IMG/VR virus record: IMGVR_UViG_3300000116_000260
Location: 1-22,684 of that record
Length of the DNA: 22,684 nucleotides
Direction: 5' to 3' (one strand)
DNA from: a virus
Position 1 is the first letter of the stretch, and every line of letters begins with the position of its first letter. Made by a program: the position numbers and the translations under genes. This document shows, one piece after another, positions 6,272 to 21,214 of this stretch. Below the pieces are notes generated by a model. The model was not told the origin of the DNA. It ran no database searches and saw nothing but the letters and a program-made list of their open reading frames with translations.

Positions 6272-7465
6272 TTAAGAATATTTTTTTATTAAATCTTTAG
6301 CAGAAGATGATTTCATTTTAATTGGTGTTTCTTCAACAGTTTCTTCAACTGTATCTTGAACTTCCACTTGTGGTTCGTACATGTTAGCTGCAGCATTAGG
6401 AATGGTTGCATCCTCTGTTACTGTTTCAGCAATAGTACCTTGTGGCGTTTGCAGATCTTCAGTTTGTTGTGCTTGAACTTCTTCTTGAGCTGGAAGCATA
6501 ACTTGTTTTTGTGCAGCTATGTTTGCAGCAGAAGTAGCCGCTGCATTGGCTATAGTATCTGGATGAGGTCTTACTTGACGTGTGTATTTGTTACCCATGT
6601 AACCGTTTAAATTTTTAAATGCAGCTGCTTGAGCACCATCTTCAAATTCTAAACCATCTTCATCAACAAAGTTCACATCTTCAGCTAAAGCTTTTATTTC
6701 ATCATTAGGTATGTTTAAATGATCTCCTAAGAAAGATCTAACACCTTCGGGGCCAACTTCATTTAAAGCATCTAACGTAAACCCTAAAACTTCTTTGTCA
6801 TGCTCAGCATAATCACCTGAATCATAAACTAATTGTCCGTTTTCGTTAGTCCTAGCTCTAGGCATACCATTTTCATCTAAACCTAAGTTTTTAACAAATG
6901 GATCAACTAAAGTATTTATAGGTTTCATTTTTCTAAAAGGTTTTGGAATATTAACAAAATCATATATGTTAATATCAAAATTTCCTTGCATAGGATGTTT
7001 ACCTACTCCTTCCATTTTAACTCTACCTTCATCGTCTAAAGCTAATTCAACTTCACCTCTATCTATAGCTTGTAAAACAGCTTCTTCATGCTGATCCATA
7101 CCATAGGATAATGTACCATTTTTAAGCATTTCATTATACATAGCTAAATTAGATTCTACTGTTTTTGTAAAATTACCTAAATTGCCAACCATTTGTTCAA
7201 CCATAGCCATTTTAGCTGCAAAATCAGCATTACTAATCTCACCTTTACCTTTCTTATTAACCAAGTCATTTGCTTGGCCAACTATGTTTCTAGCAACAGC
7301 CTGACTTTGAACTTTAAAAACACCTTGAGGTGTAGGATTTTCTTGATTTAATCTATCTTCGGCTGATTTTCTAAATTTTCTATCATACTCAACATTCCTA
7401 GCTGCTCTTATGATTTGCTGCTCAGGGCTTGTTTTCTTACGTGCCTCGTTTGGATTGTATTCCAT
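6272..7465 (-). CDS. putative internal virion / ejection-associated protein (397 aa)
   Basis: Complete ORF from ATG 7465; its TAA abuts the ATG of the giant protein with no gap, so the two are probably translationally coupled. The first 60 residues are charged and helical, then a mixed helical region. Around residues 140-260 there are acidic turns such as LDENGMP and VDEDGLEFEDGAQAAAF. The C-terminal 100 residues are low-complexity (Ala, Gln, Glu, Thr), probably disordered, ending in the basic tail KDLIKKYS. I recognise no catalytic motif and no signal peptide or membrane segment. Position between an Ala/Gln-rich ejection-type protein and the giant cargo protein suggests a virion component that is packaged or ejected with DNA, comparable in place to the internal proteins of podoviruses or the cargo proteins of crAss-like phages. 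This role is inferred from context only. Confidence 0.8.
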   Translation of the reverse strand: MEYNPNEARKKTSPEQQIIRAARNVEYDRKFRKSAEDRLNQENPTPQGVFKVQSQAVARNIVGQANDLVNKKGKGEISNADFAAKMAMVEQMVGNLGNFTKTVESNLAMYNEMLKNGTLSYGMDQHEEAVLQAIDRGEVELALDDEGRVKMEGVGKHPMQGNFDINIYDFVNIPKPFRKMKPINTLVDPFVKNLGLDENGMPRARTNENGQLVYDSGDYAEHDKEVLGFTLDALNEVGPEGVRSFLGDHLNIPNDEIKALAEDVNFVDEDGLEFEDGAQAAAFKNLNGYMGNKYTRQVRPHPDTIANAAATSAANIAAQKQVMLPAQEEVQAQQTEDLQTPQGTIAETVTEDATIPNAAANMYEPQVEVQDTVEETVEETPIKMKSSSAKDLIKKYS

Positions 7466-9263: not shown

Positions 9264-12200
9264 TTATGCGTTTTGAGTTATTGTTAAAGTTGTATCTGAC
9301 AATGCAGGAGATATTCTTGTATTTGTATTACTAACTGTAATTGTACCTGTTCTCTGTACTCCTGTACTGTTTGCTTCAAGACTAACATCAAAACTAGTAT
9401 CAGGATTTAAAGCTGTAACAGCATTAACACCACCAATTAATATCCAAGAATCTGAAGCAGTTAATTCTGTGCTAACATTACTTGGTGAAGCAACTGTTTG
9501 AGCTGGTAATCCTGTATTGTCAAATGTTATTGGTATCATATTATTTACAACAGCCAACACTGGTCCACCAGTTACAGTTGTTATTGCACCTATAACAGCA
9601 GTGCTTGGTGAAACTAAAACTATGCTATACACAGCACTAAAACTTGTACCTGCATTTATAGATGTATTAGTAACTGATGCAACTACAGGCGAACCTGCGA
9701 CTGCTCCATTTGTTACTACAAAAGTAGCGCTAGTAGGTGTCATTGTCATATTAGCTGGTATGCCTGAATAACTTACCGTAGCTGTTATATTTGTATTATC
9801 AAAAGGTGATATTTTATAAGGCTGAGTAAGTGCAGGTGAAGCAAATGTAGCATAAGTCATGTTAACTGTAGGTATACTCCAAGACAATAAAGTCTTAAGT
9901 GTTGCCACACCACTTACCGCTACAGTTCCTGAAGAAGCTGTAGAAGGTACAGTTAAATTATACTCATACTTAGCATTATCTTGATTGTTAGCTACCGCAG
10001 GTGATGCCGCTGTTACTCTACTTATTAATGCTGCAGTTGGATTAAAAGATAAAATTCCAGAAATGTCAACTACTATATTTGCAGGATCTATATAATAATC
10101 AGCATCTGATAACAATGTAAATGCATAAGTTTGAACGCCAACAATGTTAAATACTGTAGAAGCTGGAGTAGGTGTTGCATTAGCCACTGCATCATTAATA
10201 TTTATAGTTAATAAAGCTGGTGTGCTAGCTAATATAGCTCCTACGCCACCAACAGTAAGAGTTTGAATAGAATCAGTAGAACCAATTGTATAAGCAACTC
10301 TAAAAACTATATTTCCTTCAGCTGTTAAACCAGTAGGATTGGTAACTGTTAAACTACTATTTCCACCAAGAGTTATATCTCCAGGCGTAAGAAATTTATA
10401 TGCTAAACTTATAGGTGTAGCAGTTATTATCCACTGAACTACATCTCCTTGTTTTCCAATTAATGTTGATTCACCTGTTAAACTTCCATTTACAGCCGTA
10501 CCTATTATTTGCAGCGAAGTAGATATTGTATTTATTGTTTGTGGTAAAGTACCCATACTTGTTACATCGGTTTCTATAAAACTTAATAACCAACCACTAG
10601 ATCCTTCATATCCTAATGTATTAAACTGTTTTATAGTAGAAGGAGATTCATTAAATATAGGTTGCACAAAAGAAGGTTGAGTTCCTAAACCATAAAAGTT
10701 ATTTCTAAATCCAGGTGTAGTGTCATTGTGTCTCCATAAACTACCTTGATAAAAAGTATAATAAGTATTATTTAAACTTAAACCAGACTCTTGATTAAAA
10801 GACCTAAAGCTACTCCATCCTTTAGAATTTTCATCATATGCAATAGTTAAATAACCATCAGTAGCAGTTCCAACGTTTGTATCTGGATTACCATCTAAAC
10901 CTTGGCCTACTATAGTTAGCATTAATAAACTAGAATATTCATCATAGCTACTAGTAATAGTTATAGCAGCTTTTAAAGCATCTCTAAAAAAATCTGCCAT
11001 ACCTATATTAGATATTTCTTCAATACCTTGAGGTGATAGTTTTAAAACAGATCCATTATTTCTATCTGTAAAGTATTTGTTAAATCCAAATTCAGCATAA
11101 GAAAGTGGATCTTTAGATATACCAAAGCGACCAGCATAAGGTGCTACTGTACCTAAAAATTGTGTATTACTTGTTACAGGTATTTGACCACCTTCAGCAG
11201 AGTAAATAAAATCTTTATCAATAGGTGATCTAGATATTTTATCTTCTTGAAAAATTAACAATTGTGTATCATCAGCAGCGAGCTTCTGTATTGAGCCATC
11301 TTGTGGATCTACAGATACAGTTAAACCGCCTTCAGATTCATTAAATTGATTTATATAGTTAATACCAGTTCTAGAATTAAAAAGTCCACTAGAATGTATT
11401 AAAGTGTTAAATCTTAATTCTTCAGCAAAGTTATCTTGTACAACAAAAGCTCTAACACCAACATCAAAAAATTGCTGATTGTATCCAGCTCTTAATCGGT
11501 TTAATTCTATATTAGCTCCTGCTGCTGCACCTGGAGGTTGAAAATCTAATAAGTAACAATTAAAAAAATCTATATTTATAGCTATTGCTTGTATGTTAGT
11601 AACCAATCCACCTGTAGATGTTTCATAAAATATATCTAAGTCAGATTCAAAAGGTTGTGTTTCGTAAACAGCTATACCACTTGAAACTGCTGCACCACTA
11701 TTATTAACTGTTGTTGTTGAGGCTTCTCCTGTTGGATTTGCTATAGCTTGAATAGATTGTAAAGCTCCATAAACAGAAGATACAATGTTTTGACCTCCTA
11801 CATACTTAGGATAAACAGAAACATCACATGGAGATATTGTAGCTGATGTACTTGGTGGTATAACAGCTGTTTGATCTCTAGGTATTTTATTTTGACTATC
11901 ACCTAATCTTTCTACAACATTAAGTGAAGATACAGCTGATATCCAGTTATAATATTCTTGTTCTCTTTGCTTTACAACAATTCTATAGGTGTAAGCCCAT
12001 GTTGGAATTTGATTAACTGGATCTGTAAATACAATCCTTAATGCGTTAAATGCATCTGTTGAATCAGCTGCACCAGTAGTTGGATCAACATAAACCGTAT
12101 CACCACCTGAGTTTGATAATATAACAGGTGATTGTCTACCAAATTTATCAGCTAATACAATACCTATTTGATATGTTCTTCTTGATTTTAAAGAAAGTGG

Positions 12201-13313
12201 ATTTACTCCTGGTCCCCACTTAGCTCTAGCTGCGTTTTCACCAGTTCTAGTTACTGTGAAATCAATGTTTGGTATATTATAGTTTTGTAAAAAATTTCCA
12301 TAAACTAATCTACCTCCTACTAGTTCTTGTGATTGAGCTATTCTAGGAACAGCATCGTACACTCTAGTTAACTGATCTCCTGGTAATGTTCTAAATGGAT
12401 CTTGTGAAGCATAGAAAAAGTTTATTGAAGCTTCACCTGCAACAGGCTTATCTTCAACAACATACAAAGCAGTTGATCCTGTTTCTTTGTATATTAATTC
12501 TACTTCTGTTATACCATAACCAACAGGTGTTGGTATTTGAAATTGTACTGATTTTATAGCATTTACAAAAGTTTCTATTTCTCCAAAAGTATTTATACTT
12601 GTAGATATTGCGTCAGGATTACCCATCCTAGAGAATATAGTTGTAGAAAAAGGTGCTAATGTACTATACTCACCATCGTCAAACTTCCATCTATAAGAAA
12701 ATCTTACTAATTTTTCTTCTAAAAAGTTAGAAGTAATAGGATTACCTTGTTCATCAGTAGTACCAACGGCAAGAATTGTTGGAGAAAGATAAGGTGTAAA
12801 TTTAGCTACAGAAGCTAAGTTGTCAAATGATACAGAAGTATAGTATGTAGGATCATTTACAGCTCTTACTACGTTTATTTTTCTTGGAGGATTTCTATTG
12901 TCAGTCCAAAAAAGTAAATCATCAACAAGATTTATTCCTGATATTTTAAAGTCTTTGTGAAAATTTAAATCTGCTCCACTTACTAAAGTTCTTAATTGTT
13001 TTGATGATTGGTCATATGAAAAAATACCATGAGTACCTCCATTACTTCCATCATAAGAATCGTTAGATGTTACGTAAAAATATATTCTATCATCACTATT
13101 GCTTCTATAAGACCCAATGCAAGATCCGTCAGTTATACCTGAAGATGCAACTTGAATATTACCTAATAAATTCTCAATAGCACCCATATCAGCACTTTCC
13201 GACTTACCAACGTTGATATTTAGAGCCTCTCTATATTCGCCAGGAGGAACTAATCTATCATCTTTGTCTCGATTCATTCGGCCACCGTTAAATTGCTTCT
13301 TAATTTCTGGCAT
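9264..13313 (-). CDS. large tail-tip/stabilization ('muzzle'-type) protein with Ig-like and BACON-like C-terminus
   Basis: Complete 1349-residue ORF from ATG 13313. Residues 1 to about 900 look like the tail stabilization/muzzle proteins of crAss-like and marine podovirus-like phages: the N-terminus has MNRDKDDRLVPPGEY and then GAIENLLGN, and near residue 750 there is FTDRNNGSVLKLSPQGIEEIS, with several short beta-rich repeats between. After about residue 905 (YEGSSGWLLSF) the character changes to Ser/Thr/Ala/Val-rich, nearly charge-free beta sequence made of several Ig-like modules. The last 85 residues resemble a BACON domain: TASDSW, then RTGTITVSN and a final TLTITQNA. BACON domains are typical of Bacteroidota proteins and occur in a crAssphage tail protein. 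Inferred role: closes the tail tube and, through the C-terminal array, contacts the host surface. Domain count in the array is uncertain. Confidence 0.85.
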   Translation of the reverse strand: MPEIKKQFNGGRMNRDKDDRLVPPGEYREALNINVGKSESADMGAIENLLGNIQVASSGITDGSCIGSYRSNSDDRIYFYVTSNDSYDGSNGGTHGIFSYDQSSKQLRTLVSGADLNFHKDFKISGINLVDDLLFWTDNRNPPRKINVVRAVNDPTYYTSVSFDNLASVAKFTPYLSPTILAVGTTDEQGNPITSNFLEEKLVRFSYRWKFDDGEYSTLAPFSTTIFSRMGNPDAISTSINTFGEIETFVNAIKSVQFQIPTPVGYGITEVELIYKETGSTALYVVEDKPVAGEASINFFYASQDPFRTLPGDQLTRVYDAVPRIAQSQELVGGRLVYGNFLQNYNIPNIDFTVTRTGENAARAKWGPGVNPLSLKSRRTYQIGIVLADKFGRQSPVILSNSGGDTVYVDPTTGAADSTDAFNALRIVFTDPVNQIPTWAYTYRIVVKQREQEYYNWISAVSSLNVVERLGDSQNKIPRDQTAVIPPSTSATISPCDVSVYPKYVGGQNIVSSVYGALQSIQAIANPTGEASTTTVNNSGAAVSSGIAVYETQPFESDLDIFYETSTGGLVTNIQAIAINIDFFNCYLLDFQPPGAAAGANIELNRLRAGYNQQFFDVGVRAFVVQDNFAEELRFNTLIHSSGLFNSRTGINYINQFNESEGGLTVSVDPQDGSIQKLAADDTQLLIFQEDKISRSPIDKDFIYSAEGGQIPVTSNTQFLGTVAPYAGRFGISKDPLSYAEFGFNKYFTDRNNGSVLKLSPQGIEEISNIGMADFFRDALKAAITITSSYDEYSSLLMLTIVGQGLDGNPDTNVGTATDGYLTIAYDENSKGWSSFRSFNQESGLSLNNTYYTFYQGSLWRHNDTTPGFRNNFYGLGTQPSFVQPIFNESPSTIKQFNTLGYEGSSGWLLSFIETDVTSMGTLPQTINTISTSLQIIGTAVNGSLTGESTLIGKQGDVVQWIITATPISLAYKFLTPGDITLGGNSSLTVTNPTGLTAEGNIVFRVAYTIGSTDSIQTLTVGGVGAILASTPALLTININDAVANATPTPASTVFNIVGVQTYAFTLLSDADYYIDPANIVVDISGILSFNPTAALISRVTAASPAVANNQDNAKYEYNLTVPSTASSGTVAVSGVATLKTLLSWSIPTVNMTYATFASPALTQPYKISPFDNTNITATVSYSGIPANMTMTPTSATFVVTNGAVAGSPVVASVTNTSINAGTSFSAVYSIVLVSPSTAVIGAITTVTGGPVLAVVNNMIPITFDNTGLPAQTVASPSNVSTELTASDSWILIGGVNAVTALNPDTSFDVSLEANSTGVQRTGTITVSNTNTRISPALSDTTLTITQNA

Positions 13314-15863: not shown

Positions 15864-17462
15864 CTAAGCTTTGAATAAAACAAAGTTATTAGCTGCTTGA
15901 GTGATAAGACATCTTTCACTTAAGTAGTTAATTTTCATTTCATCAATATCAGAAGTAGGAGAACCAGTTCCAACAGATCCTGTAATCCAAGATTTATTTT
16001 TACGGTTTTCAGTTTCTGAAGATCTATATCTAATGTGTAAGAATGGACGCTTGATGTTTTGACCTAATTGTTGATCGTAAACTGTAGAAGTTCCAGCAGG
16101 AATTAATACACCTTCGATGTCTCCAAAACCTCCACGAGTTGACCAGTCATTTAAGTATTTCCAGTCAGTTTTGTAAAAGTCATAAGAACCTCTGCGGTAT
16201 CCTGTGAATCCTAAGTTAAGAGCCATATCAGCACTGTTGTTAAATACACCAAAAGATGTACCATGAGCGTGATTAGCTGTTCCAGCATATGCACCATTTT
16301 GTTGCGCTAGAATATCATCAATTTCTAAAGAAAGATCACGATTTAAGAAAAGCATGTTTTCTTCAATTGCCCCTTGCTTGTCTAGTTGCTTGAGTACATT
16401 GTCAAAATCTGTTAATGCACCACCACCTGCTTGAGCAGCTGCTTGAGCACCAAATCCTTGATAAACATTTCCTCTAGCTTCAAGAGCTTCAAAGAAACCT
16501 TCTGTACCACGAGCGTTTTGCGTGCCTAAAGAACCTCCAAAAGTACCTAGTGGAATAGCTGCTCCACCTGCTACTTTTTTAACGCCTTCAACCATAGACA
16601 TTTCAAGATAATCTTCCCAACGAAGTCTATTTTCATGTTCTGATTTAACGTACCATAAGTAACCACCTGCACCATTTTCAGAAGTAACTTCAATCCAACC
16701 AATCTGAGCTGTGTCAGAACCATTGATTTGATAGTTTTCTTTTAGAATAATAGGAGCATTAGCAAACGTTGCATATCCTGGATCTAGCTTTTCAGTAAAG
16801 TTTCCTGTACCTTTAGCAAATTCAGAACCGTAAACAATTGCTGTAACTCTAGATGCTGCTGCAATTTGTGCGTGAGCTGCATATGATTGTACTTGGAACA
16901 TTTGTCCCGCGCCAACAGCACCTGCACCAACACCTACATTAGTAACTACACCTTTAATAACAGCGCCAGTTCCACCAACTGCTGAAGTAGCTGAAGTTTG
17001 AACCTGTACCATTACAGTTTGTCCTATTCTAAAATTACACTGAAGTGTATTAGCTGGAGCACCTGTTAAACCTGTGCTAGCAGGCTGAGCAACTGGTACT
17101 TCAAAATTTAGTATACCACCTGCGGCAGCGGCTGCAGCAATGATTGCTTGTCCACCTCCTGCTGCTGGCATCACTCCTGCTGTACCTCGAGGAATAACAT
17201 TTGCATATCTTGTATGTAATCTACCTTGTTCAGTCCAGATTATTTGATCTGAAGTTGAAGGCATTTCCGCAGATACCATACGAAGGAAAGAACCGATAGA
17301 TCTGTTTCCATATCTTTCTACTTCTTTTTCGTACACATCTGGTAAAAATTGTTGTGTCCATTGACTAAAGTTTGCATCAGTGAAATTAATGTAATTTCCA
17401 CCGTACATTGCTTTAGTTTGGGTTGGTTGTAAAGCGGCTGGTATGCCTGCTGTAAAAGCCAT
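15864..17462 (-). CDS. major capsid protein
   Basis: Complete 532-residue ORF from ATG 17462. It sits after portal and scaffold genes, the standard place of the major capsid gene. The N-terminal region (FSQWTQQFLPDVYEKEVERY, then IGSFLRMVSAEMPSTSDQI) matches the N-arm pattern of capsid proteins of marine Bacteroidota phages; residues about 95-210 are an Ala/Gly-rich, beta-prone insertion-like stretch; ENRLRWEDYLEMSMVEG follows near residue 280, and the C-terminal third holds SFGVFNNSADMALNLGF and FLHIRYRSSETENRKN. Presumed HK97 fold. The gene has more G/C-ending codons than its neighbours, as expected of a highly expressed protein. The leader is A-rich with no Shine-Dalgarno sequence. A hairpin follows the stop. 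Confidence 0.88.
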   Translation of the reverse strand: MAFTAGIPAALQPTQTKAMYGGNYINFTDANFSQWTQQFLPDVYEKEVERYGNRSIGSFLRMVSAEMPSTSDQIIWTEQGRLHTRYANVIPRGTAGVMPAAGGGQAIIAAAAAAGGILNFEVPVAQPASTGLTGAPANTLQCNFRIGQTVMVQVQTSATSAVGGTGAVIKGVVTNVGVGAGAVGAGQMFQVQSYAAHAQIAAASRVTAIVYGSEFAKGTGNFTEKLDPGYATFANAPIILKENYQINGSDTAQIGWIEVTSENGAGGYLWYVKSEHENRLRWEDYLEMSMVEGVKKVAGGAAIPLGTFGGSLGTQNARGTEGFFEALEARGNVYQGFGAQAAAQAGGGALTDFDNVLKQLDKQGAIEENMLFLNRDLSLEIDDILAQQNGAYAGTANHAHGTSFGVFNNSADMALNLGFTGYRRGSYDFYKTDWKYLNDWSTRGGFGDIEGVLIPAGTSTVYDQQLGQNIKRPFLHIRYRSSETENRKNKSWITGSVGTGSPTSDIDEMKINYLSERCLITQAANNFVLFKA

Positions 17463-17488: not shown

Positions 17489-18757
17489 TTATTTCCATTT
17501 TATTCGCAACTTGTCAGAAGATTCGCCTGATACTACTCTAATTTGATCACCTTGTTTTGTCATAACTGAAGATCCATCGCTTCTAGGGTCCATGTTTATG
17601 TTTTTAGCTTTTCTAGCTGAATCTTTTATAGCGTCGGCACGGCCTTGCTCATAAAAATGATTAGCTATTTTATCTGCATTTTGCGCAGCAAAAAGTGCTT
17701 TATGGTATTTTCCCACGTCTTGTGCACCACCTTTACTCTCAAACTGGTTTAAAAAATTTGTAATATCTGACTGGAACTCTTTTGTTTTTTCAGGGTTTTC
17801 AACTTTAAACCTATATTTGTTTTCTCCAACATTAAAATCAAAACCTTTGAAATTATCGGAAAATACTTTTTCAGTTTTACTGTCAAAATCATTTTTAAAT
17901 TTTATTCGTCCTTCAGCCTGTTGCTTTTGTTTATTATAATACTCAAAAGCCTCTTGATATTCAGGAGCAACATTATCTTTTTTTCTTAACTTAAGATCAT
18001 TATAATATTGTTCTTTTACTTTATTAAAAGTATTTTTAGCATTAAATAATTCTTCTTTAAAAGCTAGTTGCCTAGCTTTAACGTCAGACGCTTCGTCTAA
18101 CTCTGCATCATAAGAAAAGTTTTTATCCATTAAAAAATTGATATCTTCTTTATCTAAATGCGGTTTTGTAAATTCATAATACTCTCTAACTAAACTTACG
18201 TTATCTATTTTATCTATATCTCTATTTAGCTTAGTGTAGTCTTCAACACTACCTCCAGTGTCTTCCATAAACTTAATAAGTTTATCAACACCTTCTGGCA
18301 AGTCTATACTAGTATCTTGTATTATTTCTTCTTTTGTTAAAGGAATAGGTTTTTCTTCTATTTCCTTTTGTTGTACTTCTTCTTCTTCTTCTTTAACTAA
18401 TTCTAAAGGAGAATCTTCTATAGTTTCGTTTACTTCTTCTTTTTGGGTTGAAGTATCTTCTTGATTGGATTCGACCCGTACTTTGCCGTCCACTTCTTGG
18501 CTATCTCCGGTTCGTTCGCCCACAGAAACCTTCTCTGTTTCTCGCTCTTGAATGGCATCTTTTTCTTGTTTTTTAGGTTCTTCATCAATGTTAACTTTAT
18601 AAACTCCATCATCTTGAAGTCCATATTCTTTATCTACTTCACCTGATTCAACAGCTTTTTCAAGTACAGCTGCTTCTTTCTCTTGAGGAGTTATTACAAC
18701 ATCCTCATTTCCATCAACAACTTTCACTTCAATTTTTTCTTCTGTATTGTTTTCCAT
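17489..18757 (-). CDS. capsid scaffold-like protein
   Basis: Complete 422-residue ORF from ATG 18757, between portal and capsid genes. Residues 1-140 are extremely Glu/Lys-rich and probably disordered. A helical core follows: LPEGVDKLIKFMEDTGGSVE near residue 155, NRDIDKIDNVSLVREYYEF, then LDKEDINFLMDKNFSYD and long charged helices with RQLAFKEELFNAK. The 'FMxDTGG...LxREYY...LxxEDIxFLM' pattern is one I recall from putative scaffolds of marine phages. Expected role: guides capsid assembly together with the portal, then leaves the prohead. No protease motif is seen. The disordered part at residues 67-109 overlaps, in another frame, a separate small gene on a G+C island, so the local sequence of this protein may be a by-product of that gene. 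Confidence 0.8.
   Translation of the reverse strand: MENNTEEKIEVKVVDGNEDVVITPQEKEAAVLEKAVESGEVDKEYGLQDDGVYKVNIDEEPKKQEKDAIQERETEKVSVGERTGDSQEVDGKVRVESNQEDTSTQKEEVNETIEDSPLELVKEEEEEVQQKEIEEKPIPLTKEEIIQDTSIDLPEGVDKLIKFMEDTGGSVEDYTKLNRDIDKIDNVSLVREYYEFTKPHLDKEDINFLMDKNFSYDAELDEASDVKARQLAFKEELFNAKNTFNKVKEQYYNDLKLRKKDNVAPEYQEAFEYYNKQKQQAEGRIKFKNDFDSKTEKVFSDNFKGFDFNVGENKYRFKVENPEKTKEFQSDITNFLNQFESKGGAQDVGKYHKALFAAQNADKIANHFYEQGRADAIKDSARKAKNINMDPRSDGSSVMTKQGDQIRVVSGESSDKLRIKWK
18430..18558 (-). CDS. small basic MPFKS-type phage protein, overprinted within the scaffold gene
   Basis: A 42-residue ORF from ATG 18558 to TAA 18430-18432, same strand as the scaffold gene but in its +1 frame. The product begins MPFKSEKQRRF, continues with ANEPEIAKKW and ends in a lysine tail (KKKK). 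I recall many short phage proteins with the pattern MPFKSxxQRRxxxAxxPEIAxxW, so the match argues for a real gene rather than a chance ORF. The frame opens earlier (ATG 18624), but the family pattern starts at the internal Met, so I choose that. The leader is A-rich (AAACAAGAAAAAG) with no strong Shine-Dalgarno sequence. Bases 18471-18560 are 52% G+C by hand count, against 27% in the 60 bases on its upstream side. The function of the family is unknown to me; the basic charge suggests nucleic acid or acidic-protein binding. Confidence 0.62.
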   Translation of the reverse strand: MPFKSEKQRRFLWANEPEIAKKWTAKYGSNPIKKILQPKKKK

Positions 18758-18787: not shown

Positions 18788-21214
18788 TTAAGATGCTTCA
18801 AATCTTCCCATATCAAAGCCACCTAAGGTATCATTACCTGCTGATTCAAAATCTTTAGTGGGATTATCAGTATTAGGAGCTCCACTAATTCTACCTTCAA
18901 CTTTCATAGCTTCTTTAGTTAAAGCCGTAGCATTACTTCTTTCAGCAAGTTCCATTTGTGATTTTAATTCTAATTCTTTTAACTGAACGTTTAAATTAAA
19001 TTCATATTGCATTAGTTCTTTTTTAGATCTGGTTTCAAGTTCCATTTTTTTTATTTCAAACTCTATATCAGCTTGCCTGTATTGTATTTTAGATGCTGTT
19101 TTAACTTGTTCAGCATCAGCTTTTGCAGCTTCTATTTCTATTTGAGCTTGTCCTTGAGCTTGAGCTTGTGCAGCGCTAGCAGCTTGTGCTTGAGCTTGAT
19201 CAGCTTTTTGTTTAGATTGTCTTCTGTATTTTAATAATTGATTAGCTAGTTTAACATTTTTAACTTCTCTTATGTCTATAGCATCTTCAAGAAATATATC
19301 ACCTTTAGACAAAGCCATTTGTATATTGGCTTCTAATAAAGCTTTTTCATCTTCATCAGGTTCTAATTCTAAAAATATACCAAAATCATGTAAGTTTAAA
19401 TTTTTAACTTCTTCTAAAGATCCTACTGAAAATTGTCCTATTGAATCTATTAAGGATTCTTTTGTTGGATGAAATTCTAATACGTCTTTAAACCTAAGAG
19501 ATATAGCTTCAGCTAATGATGTTGTTATAAACATACTACTATAAAGTATATGTCTAGTTGCTACGTTACTATTTGCTGCAGCTAGTTTTTGAACACCAAC
19601 TAAAGAATTAGGATCTGGATCAGAACCATCTCTAGCTTCATTAAGACCAGTAACATCTCTCATCATTTGTATATACTGATTGTATGCACCAACTAAAACT
19701 TGAACTTGTCCTCCGCCACTTCCTGGTAATTCTTGTATTGGAACTTTACCAGCGTTTTGATCACCTTCAACAGTTAAAGATCTACCTATTATAGAACCTG
19801 TTTGAAAATACATGTTTAATGCTTCTTGAGGATTATAGTTATTTCCATTACCTAAGTCTATTTCAGCTAATCCATCAGCATCTAAATAAACACCTGAAGG
19901 TGTCATTCTTTGTATTGCTTGTTGAAGTTTTAAATGAGTTAATTGAACTAAATCTGCATAAGGTGTCATTTTAGCTACTAATGAATTTATATTACCTTTA
20001 TACATCCTTGGTGCACTAGCAATGTAATTCATCATGACTTTGTTAATGTTAGCATTAGGTCTAACCATATTAGTTGCCTTTTGCCATTTCAACAATTGTT
20101 GTGTTCCTAGAACTAATACACCTTCATATATAACTTCTCTTGTTTGTTTTACTTTTTCAAATCTAACAGAATCTTCTGGTGGATCAAAAGTATCATCTTT
20201 TTCTATAGCTTTTTTAGCACCAGTAGCAACTTCTTTTATTTTATATACATCATGCTCCCAAGTTTTCCAATTAAAATACAAAACTGTTAACGTGTTGTTT
20301 TGAGATAAAGAGTCATTAACTTGATAATCTTGAGGACTATATGTATTGTAAGTATTCCAGTTAGAACCTTCTTTTACTAATTGCTCTATTTCTGAATTAG
20401 GTAAATCAGGAAATTCTTTTTTAAGTTCATTTACTTTTATGTTTTTTACTTCACCAAAATAATAACAATCTTCAAAATTAGGATCTTCAGTGTAAGACCA
20501 AACTAAATTAGCTGGATCAACATATTCAACAACTACTCCATCAGTATTATTAAAACCGTGTTTAGCACAACCAATACCTATAGTTGCTATATCATAATCA
20601 ATTCTTCTTTTTGTTTGATCATAATTATTTGATTTAAAAATATTTTCTATTGCTTGTTCTTCAGCTAATTCTATACCTTGCTTATAATTAAGTTGCATGT
20701 ATAATTCTAACTCTTCAGTATTAGCTGGAAGTTCGTTTACGGCAAAATTCCTAGCTGAAACGCCTAATTCTGTTTCTATTTTTAACAGTAAATCAGCAGT
20801 ATTTAAATCTTGTTGAACATCGTTAACAAACTTTGTTCTTTTACCAGTAGATAAAGGATCTTGTCCAACAGCTTTTATAGTAAAAGTTCTATCTTGCATA
20901 CCGTTAACAACGATGTCTACAAATTTAGGAACTATAGGTACTGGTTTCCAGTCTAAGTTTAAATAAGACAGATCTCCATTTATAGCAAATTCATCTTTAT
21001 ATTTTCTTATAGATTGCTCACCACGAGCATACAACCTTAGTCTATGGCATTCTTCTCTAGAATTATAAAACCTACTAACCCCATTGTTGTCTTTATTAAA
21101 CCACTCTTGTTCAATAGCTCTACCTACCGATAAACCATACTCTTGAGTCTTTTTAACAGAGTCGGACACTGCTTGACTAGGGAATGTGTAATTTTTCGCT
21201 TTTATTTTTGCCAT
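18788..21214 (-). CDS. portal protein
   Basis: Complete 808-residue ORF from ATG 21214, two bases after the terminase stop. The long length, near that of crAss-like and P22-type portals, and the position between terminase and scaffold support the call. The N-terminal 120 residues are mixed, with WKPVPIVPKFVDIVVNGM. The centre has IGIGCAKHGFN and VVEYVDPANLVWSY (wing region), and near residue 560 MMRDVTGLNEARDGSDP followed by SLVGVQKLAAANSN, a signature I recall from marine flavophage and crAss-like portals. The last 130 residues are an Ala/Gln run then long charged helix (QAQGQAQIEIEAAKADAEQ onward), fitting a C-terminal barrel inside the head. It forms the dodecameric DNA channel at the vertex and docks the terminase. 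Confidence 0.87.
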   Translation of the reverse strand: MAKIKAKNYTFPSQAVSDSVKKTQEYGLSVGRAIEQEWFNKDNNGVSRFYNSREECHRLRLYARGEQSIRKYKDEFAINGDLSYLNLDWKPVPIVPKFVDIVVNGMQDRTFTIKAVGQDPLSTGKRTKFVNDVQQDLNTADLLLKIETELGVSARNFAVNELPANTEELELYMQLNYKQGIELAEEQAIENIFKSNNYDQTKRRIDYDIATIGIGCAKHGFNNTDGVVVEYVDPANLVWSYTEDPNFEDCYYFGEVKNIKVNELKKEFPDLPNSEIEQLVKEGSNWNTYNTYSPQDYQVNDSLSQNNTLTVLYFNWKTWEHDVYKIKEVATGAKKAIEKDDTFDPPEDSVRFEKVKQTREVIYEGVLVLGTQQLLKWQKATNMVRPNANINKVMMNYIASAPRMYKGNINSLVAKMTPYADLVQLTHLKLQQAIQRMTPSGVYLDADGLAEIDLGNGNNYNPQEALNMYFQTGSIIGRSLTVEGDQNAGKVPIQELPGSGGGQVQVLVGAYNQYIQMMRDVTGLNEARDGSDPDPNSLVGVQKLAAANSNVATRHILYSSMFITTSLAEAISLRFKDVLEFHPTKESLIDSIGQFSVGSLEEVKNLNLHDFGIFLELEPDEDEKALLEANIQMALSKGDIFLEDAIDIREVKNVKLANQLLKYRRQSKQKADQAQAQAASAAQAQAQGQAQIEIEAAKADAEQVKTASKIQYRQADIEFEIKKMELETRSKKELMQYEFNLNVQLKELELKSQMELAERSNATALTKEAMKVEGRISGAPNTDNPTKDFESAGNDTLGGFDMGRFEAS

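Follow-up and report, generated by a model that had tools for sequence, protein, structure and literature searches.

A predicted small gene overprinted in a candidate scaffold gene of related marine phages and exchanged as a cassette

Genes embedded in another gene are long known from phages. In Lambda, the short gene Rz1 is fully contained in another frame of Rz, a late gene of this double-stranded DNA phage, and encodes the lipoprotein partner of the Rz product. Among the Microviridae, lysis gene E of phiX174 overlaps the external scaffold gene D out of frame and on the same strand (PMC3324380). An overprinted orphan gene of Escherichia coli was proposed to have arisen de novo (PMC4683798). 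Well-supported cases are nevertheless rare: a survey of 715 same-direction gene overlaps of more than 60 bases in prokaryotes accepted none of them as real (PMC2478687).

The window considered here is the whole analysed stretch of 22,684 nucleotides (virus record IMGVR_UViG_3300000116_000260), in which a small gene lies embedded in a larger one, hereafter the host gene (Table 1). Like E in D, it is a small conserved gene nested out of frame and on the same strand in a (candidate) scaffold gene, and the statement of the preliminary description that such nesting had not been described therefore fails as worded. The two systems differ in several respects. phiX174 is a single-stranded DNA phage and E a lysis protein, whereas the product encoded in the window is a strongly basic peptide, in whose sequence no long hydrophobic stretch was found when it was examined for resemblance to a membrane-spanning lysis protein of the E type; moreover, the slot studied here takes different kinds of protein and the gene is found in a second host gene as well. 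With Rz1 it shares complete embedding in another frame of a late gene of a double-stranded DNA phage, but the peptide has no visible lipobox and there was no sign that it partners the host protein. As in the proposed E. coli case, the second frame of an existing gene serves as a gene, but the gene of the window is not an orphan, homologues being present outside the locus. No earlier account came to light of a nested partner being exchanged, or of its recurring in a second host gene in an unchanged phase; literature text searches retrieved no description of the nested gene, subscription papers being mostly outside their scope.

Table 1. Coordinates of the features discussed for the window
Feature	Coordinates	Strand	Basis or remark
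Head/virion structural protein, downstream of host gene	15864..17462	(-)	phrog_13704 E 5e-91; major head by position
Host gene (422 aa), product acidic in its N-terminal and helical in its C-terminal half	17489..18757	(-)	Scaffold candidate by position
Host residues 53-115, predicted disordered	18413..18601	(-)	AlphaFold2 pLDDT <50; encloses whole overlap (residues 67-109)
Nested small gene, 42 aa, ATG start, TAA stop	18430..18558	(-)	Host gene +1 frame
A-rich leader of nested ATG, candidate Bacteroidetes-type initiation region	18559..18571	(-)	Leader comparison in relatives
Portal protein, upstream of host gene	18788..21214	(-)	phrog_6547 portal E 1e-134; Pfam P22_portal E 5e-7

The name of scaffold gene, used in the preliminary description, was only partly sustained. 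The host gene meets the positional criteria, being located between the genes of the portal and the major head protein and encoding a helical and acidic product, and its homologue in phi38:1 is annotated as a structural protein. It matched no PHROG family (those of scaffolds included) and no significant Pfam family, and fold searches with its model, itself of low confidence, returned no PDB fold match and no known scaffold. The assignment thus rests on gene order and make-up only and is not proven. The acidic and disordered character attributed to the host protein at the overlap was borne out, as far as disorder can be predicted from the AlphaFold2 model (Table 1).

Isolated relatives of the host gene belong to flavobacterial phages (Elemovirus, Pervagoviridae, Pachyviridae and Maribacter phage Panino), from which Bacteroidetes hosts were inferred for the window phage. 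A protein of 1349 aa encoded at window positions 9264-13313 displayed a weak crAss muzzle C-terminal match (E 1e-4) and, at its C-terminus, a weak BACON match (E 0.008). Despite the former, the window phage is not called crAss-like here, because neither Pervagoviridae nor Elemovirus is placed in Crassvirales in the NCBI taxonomy.

The nested gene encodes MPFKSEKQRRFLWANEPEIAKKWTAKYGSNPIKKILQPKKKK. Its position, its frame and the sequence of its 42 residues, as well as the unbroken reading frame of the host gene, agreed with what had been described. The +1 frame is also open farther upstream, forming an ORF of 64 aa with an earlier ATG in the window; despite this ATG, the methionine of MPFKS is the start conserved in all 154 distinct occupied relatives. 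The small peptides are strongly basic, with a mean net charge of about +11. In the AlphaFold2 model of the peptide (mean pLDDT 74), residues 6-15 and 17-27 form short helices and the tail is loose. No Pfam or NCBIfam match above cut-off was obtained for it, and NCBIfam and PDB sequence searches gave nothing useful, the best PDB match being no better than E 0.36. The profile of phrog_1375 was matched weakly, with E 0.0064 for the window peptide and E 4.9e-5 for an F-type peptide.

A first scan gathered homologues of the host gene (41-89 % identity) on 80 viral contigs, and every one in which the 5' part was present displayed a +1 ORF at the same place, starting with MPF or MPY (MPL in one case). 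A deeper profile scan provided 80 further contigs, 75 of which were scored as occupied; in addition, L226 (MPFV start) was found occupied on reading, L250 was cut off, and L201, L219 and L232 had truly empty slots. Altogether, a nested ORF was present at the slot in 154 of 157 distinct host genes, always with an ATG and always in the +1 frame. Stops in the small frame of relatives, which would have counted against the preliminary description, were therefore not encountered, and the homologues that it called for were found, stand-alone phage proteins among them. Its main proposal, that a disordered and acidic part of the host protein shares its DNA with a conserved small phage gene read in the +1 frame, was supported. 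Locus L136:3860-5041, where the nested frame runs into the C-terminal part of the host protein through a change of frame within the overlap, was considered as an in-frame fusion of peptide and host protein and rejected; its upstream start and frame change point to a probable indel or assembly error.

Frame-specific selection was estimated from 33 disjoint pairs of homologous loci. Within the overlap, dN/dS amounted to 0.16 in the small frame versus 1.46 in the host frame, identifying the former as the constrained one. Outside the overlap, in the C-terminal part of the host gene, dN/dS was 0.19 in the host frame and 1.21 in the +1 frame, a control which shows how an unselected frame appears. 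The small frame had the lower pN in 32 of the 33 pairs, and five of six groups displayed the same strong contrast in dN/dS when analysed singly; only in group D, where divergence was lowest, was it weak (0.24 versus 0.40). In the window's own group, synonymous differences of the host frame reached their minimum over the nested gene. Synonymous change in the small gene (pS 0.33) was near the synonymous rate of the host gene elsewhere (pS 0.41), which indicates that little restricts the overlapped host residues beyond the frame staying open and the residues acidic.

Codon use in the nested gene was in keeping with two readings. When the small protein was randomly recoded with synonymous codons according to host codon usage, the host phase was open in 0.24 % of the recodings, versus 154 of 154 genes observed; the stand-alone relatives serve as a natural control, 25 of 26 displaying one to nine stops in the equivalent phase. 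Third positions of the nested gene were G in 52 % and T in 6 % of the cases, versus 10 % and 37 % in the host gene elsewhere. By avoiding T and favouring G at third positions, nested codons keep the host frame stop-free and acidic: a lysine codon following a G is read as glutamate in the host phase, which renders a basic peptide compatible with an acidic linker. The charge of the host reading over the overlap was -7.4, versus +7.7 expected if the coding only avoided host stops (27 peptides for which the sampling used gave no stop-free recoding were left out of this comparison).

Bacteroidetes mRNAs are devoid of Shine-Dalgarno sequences, and A at position -3 favours initiation in Flavobacterium johnsoniae (PMC6847099). 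In 118 distinct leaders of relatives, the A-content of the 13 bases preceding the nested ATG had its median at the 98th percentile of same-phase positions, and local folding was weaker (z about +1). This A-richness derives partly from the GAA- and AAA-rich codons of the host gene, yet it exceeds that of same-phase positions in the same genes. With such an A-rich and weakly folded leader, the nested start is plausible for Bacteroidetes ribosomes. Internal initiation is the simplest route of expression and was preferred because the ATG is invariant and common to the stand-alone relatives; translation itself is inferred, direct evidence being absent.

Programmed frameshifting from the host frame, by which the host N-terminus would be fused to the basic peptide without internal initiation, is very unlikely in comparison. 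The sequence before the ATG is A-rich and looks slippery, and in many relatives an open +1 stretch of some codons precedes it, but in several (e.g. L044, L046 and L052) this open stretch comprises just four codons; besides, a frameshift product needs no ATG, yet the ATG was invariant in 154 of 154, and the stand-alone relatives start at the same methionine. Low synonymous variation in the host frame could also result from constraint on the nucleic acid, the region being kept as an RNA or DNA element (a packaging or regulatory signal) and not for a protein. Such an element would hardly allow the synonymous sites of the small gene to vary nearly as much as those of the host gene elsewhere, nor quite different small-protein sequences to occupy the slot, and Rfam had no match for the nested region; little credit remains for it. 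Least credible is a chance ORF, left open by the GAA-rich acidic codons of the host gene and resembling known proteins by coincidence. An open +1 frame alone is indeed unremarkable because such codons seldom yield +1 stops, and it persisted over the nested length in 13 % of host-synonymous shuffles, but the MPF start was kept at that codon in just 3.4 % of them, and the family, under purifying selection in the +1 frame, is present in nearly all homologues. Its stand-alone relatives elsewhere and the frame-specific dN/dS already refute coincidence. Given the conserved peptide, the frame-specific selection and the unlikely dual coding, the nested gene lies far beyond chance and, as judged from sequence comparison, is close to certain to be a real, selected and overprinted gene.

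The peptides were sorted by motif into seven kinds (a sorting of our own, in which some kinds are related). At least 32 changes of kind were counted on a FastTree tree of the host C-terminal part, a number which is approximate because some branches are weak and long. The loci L056 and L064 illustrate such a change, being 96 % identical before the nested gene, 56 % inside it and 95 % after it; in 47 pairs, which are not independent, host C-terminal parts at least 80 % identical accompanied peptides less than 50 % identical. The slot is thus filled by several kinds of small protein, which supplant one another along the host tree, demonstrating that the gene is exchanged as a cassette.

Scans with three kinds of peptide also located the family in the +1 frame of giant ORFs (L129, L358, L370, L373, L378, L380 and L391). 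In cultured Elemovirus isolates, the nested copy resides in a structural protein gene of 3.7 kaa and the gene at the scaffold position has no nested ORF; the copy of Manatee Spring podovirus is likewise nested in the gene of a giant structural protein, and another nested copy was found in a Cytophagales MAG contig. At the Elemovirus locus L408 (NC_055853.1), the nested ATG is at position 6380. The second host gene was thereby represented by Elemovirus and nine other loci (Manatee Spring podovirus included), all in the +1 frame. Neither the Elemovirus nor the Manatee Spring records examined carry an annotation of the nested gene. Most giants are linked by sequence, yet the position of the nested gene differs among them. 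Wherever both genes were present in a record (G002, G007, Elemovirus and Manatee), it was the giant, not the gene at the scaffold position, that contained the copy. Profile searches with the small proteins found at most one place per record, many records being fragments. Since no copy was detectable by such searches in several isolated relatives (Panino, phi38:1, Gundel_1 and phi46:3), the nested gene is not universal. The giant carriers, to which L408:2692-13800, L410 (a minus-strand giant) and L434 belong in addition to the seven loci above, are of virion type and about 1,000 to 3,900 aa long, several being cut by contig ends. L316, a candidate for a new host gene, was a truncated ORF at a contig end and was not counted.

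MPFKS-type proteins do recur as stand-alone small phage proteins, in agreement with the preliminary description. Stand-alone homologues (023Pt_psg01, Streptomyces phage FlowerPower, S-CBS2 and P-RSP2, with phrog_1375 as a weak relative) share the N-terminal motif and the conserved core with the nested copies, but are ordinary separate genes, which usually contain stops in the phase that nested copies keep open. Furthermore, MPFKSEKQRRYLWANEPEIARDWTDTYGSR or a close sequence forms the N-terminus of varied proteins of about 140 to 800 aa at many loci (L115, L117-L121, L126-L128, L130-L132, L134, L135, L138-L140, L142, L144, L149, L152, L155, L156 and L167), as if the small protein doubled as a fused N-terminal module.

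Taken as a whole, the material is best explained by a genuine +1 gene of ~42 codons which is initiated internally and forms an exchangeable cassette (probability about 0.88, translation being inferred). Ribosomes on the late mRNA would read the host protein, and some of them would begin at the nested ATG inside the gene, where the preceding leader is rich in A and weakly folded, as Bacteroidetes ribosomes prefer. The peptide produced would be small and strongly basic, its two short helices being followed by a basic tail, and the overlap would be tolerated because the host protein is disordered there. Recombination would swap types of small protein in one slot, which in relatives would be located in the gene of a giant virion protein. 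Coding potential, constraint on both frames, exchange and two host genes are established by the comparisons above. A wider proposal, favoured with some reserve, is that overprinting is transferable: in this phage group, the family would settle in the +1 phase of late virion genes where these encode disordered linkers, be swapped there type for type by recombination with the host frame kept open, and have moved between at least two host genes.

The basic character, the helices, the late-gene setting, the presence once per record searched and the quick turnover of types suggest a late nucleic-acid-binding peptide or a peptide of host/phage specificity (conflict-related), a guess that remains tentative. 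An anti-defence or host-takeover factor, with types tracking host immunity, is a narrower guess, compatible with the main explanation and slightly more doubtful: types turn over rapidly on a stable backbone and no structural role was detected, but no annotated family in Pfam, NCBIfam or PHROGs was matched and the gene sits among late genes, whereas many such factors act early. That the gene is merely a selfish passenger, inserted in a dispensable linker, hard to delete cleanly and of no benefit to the phage, is unlikely. Its exchange as a unit, its two host genes, the empty slots and the near-neutral host residues would fit, but purifying selection acts on the product with about the strength seen elsewhere in the host protein (0.16 versus 0.19), mobility functions would hardly fit into about 42 codons, and ordinary homologous recombination suffices for swapping.

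The small gene and its host gene offer an unusually clear and testable case of one DNA stretch encoding two proteins in related marine phages, and the availability of Elemovirus isolates in culture, for instance on Flavobacterium sp. BAL314, makes it accessible to laboratory testing. Overlapping genes are usually seen as fixed, locked-in pairs; here, one partner is repeatedly exchanged and changes host gene with the phase kept. The loci thereby provide natural replicates for studying the mutual constraint of two frames and the spread of overlapping genes. If the proposed transferability holds true, overprinting would be an arrangement of genes that can be passed on, rather than a unique accident frozen in place.
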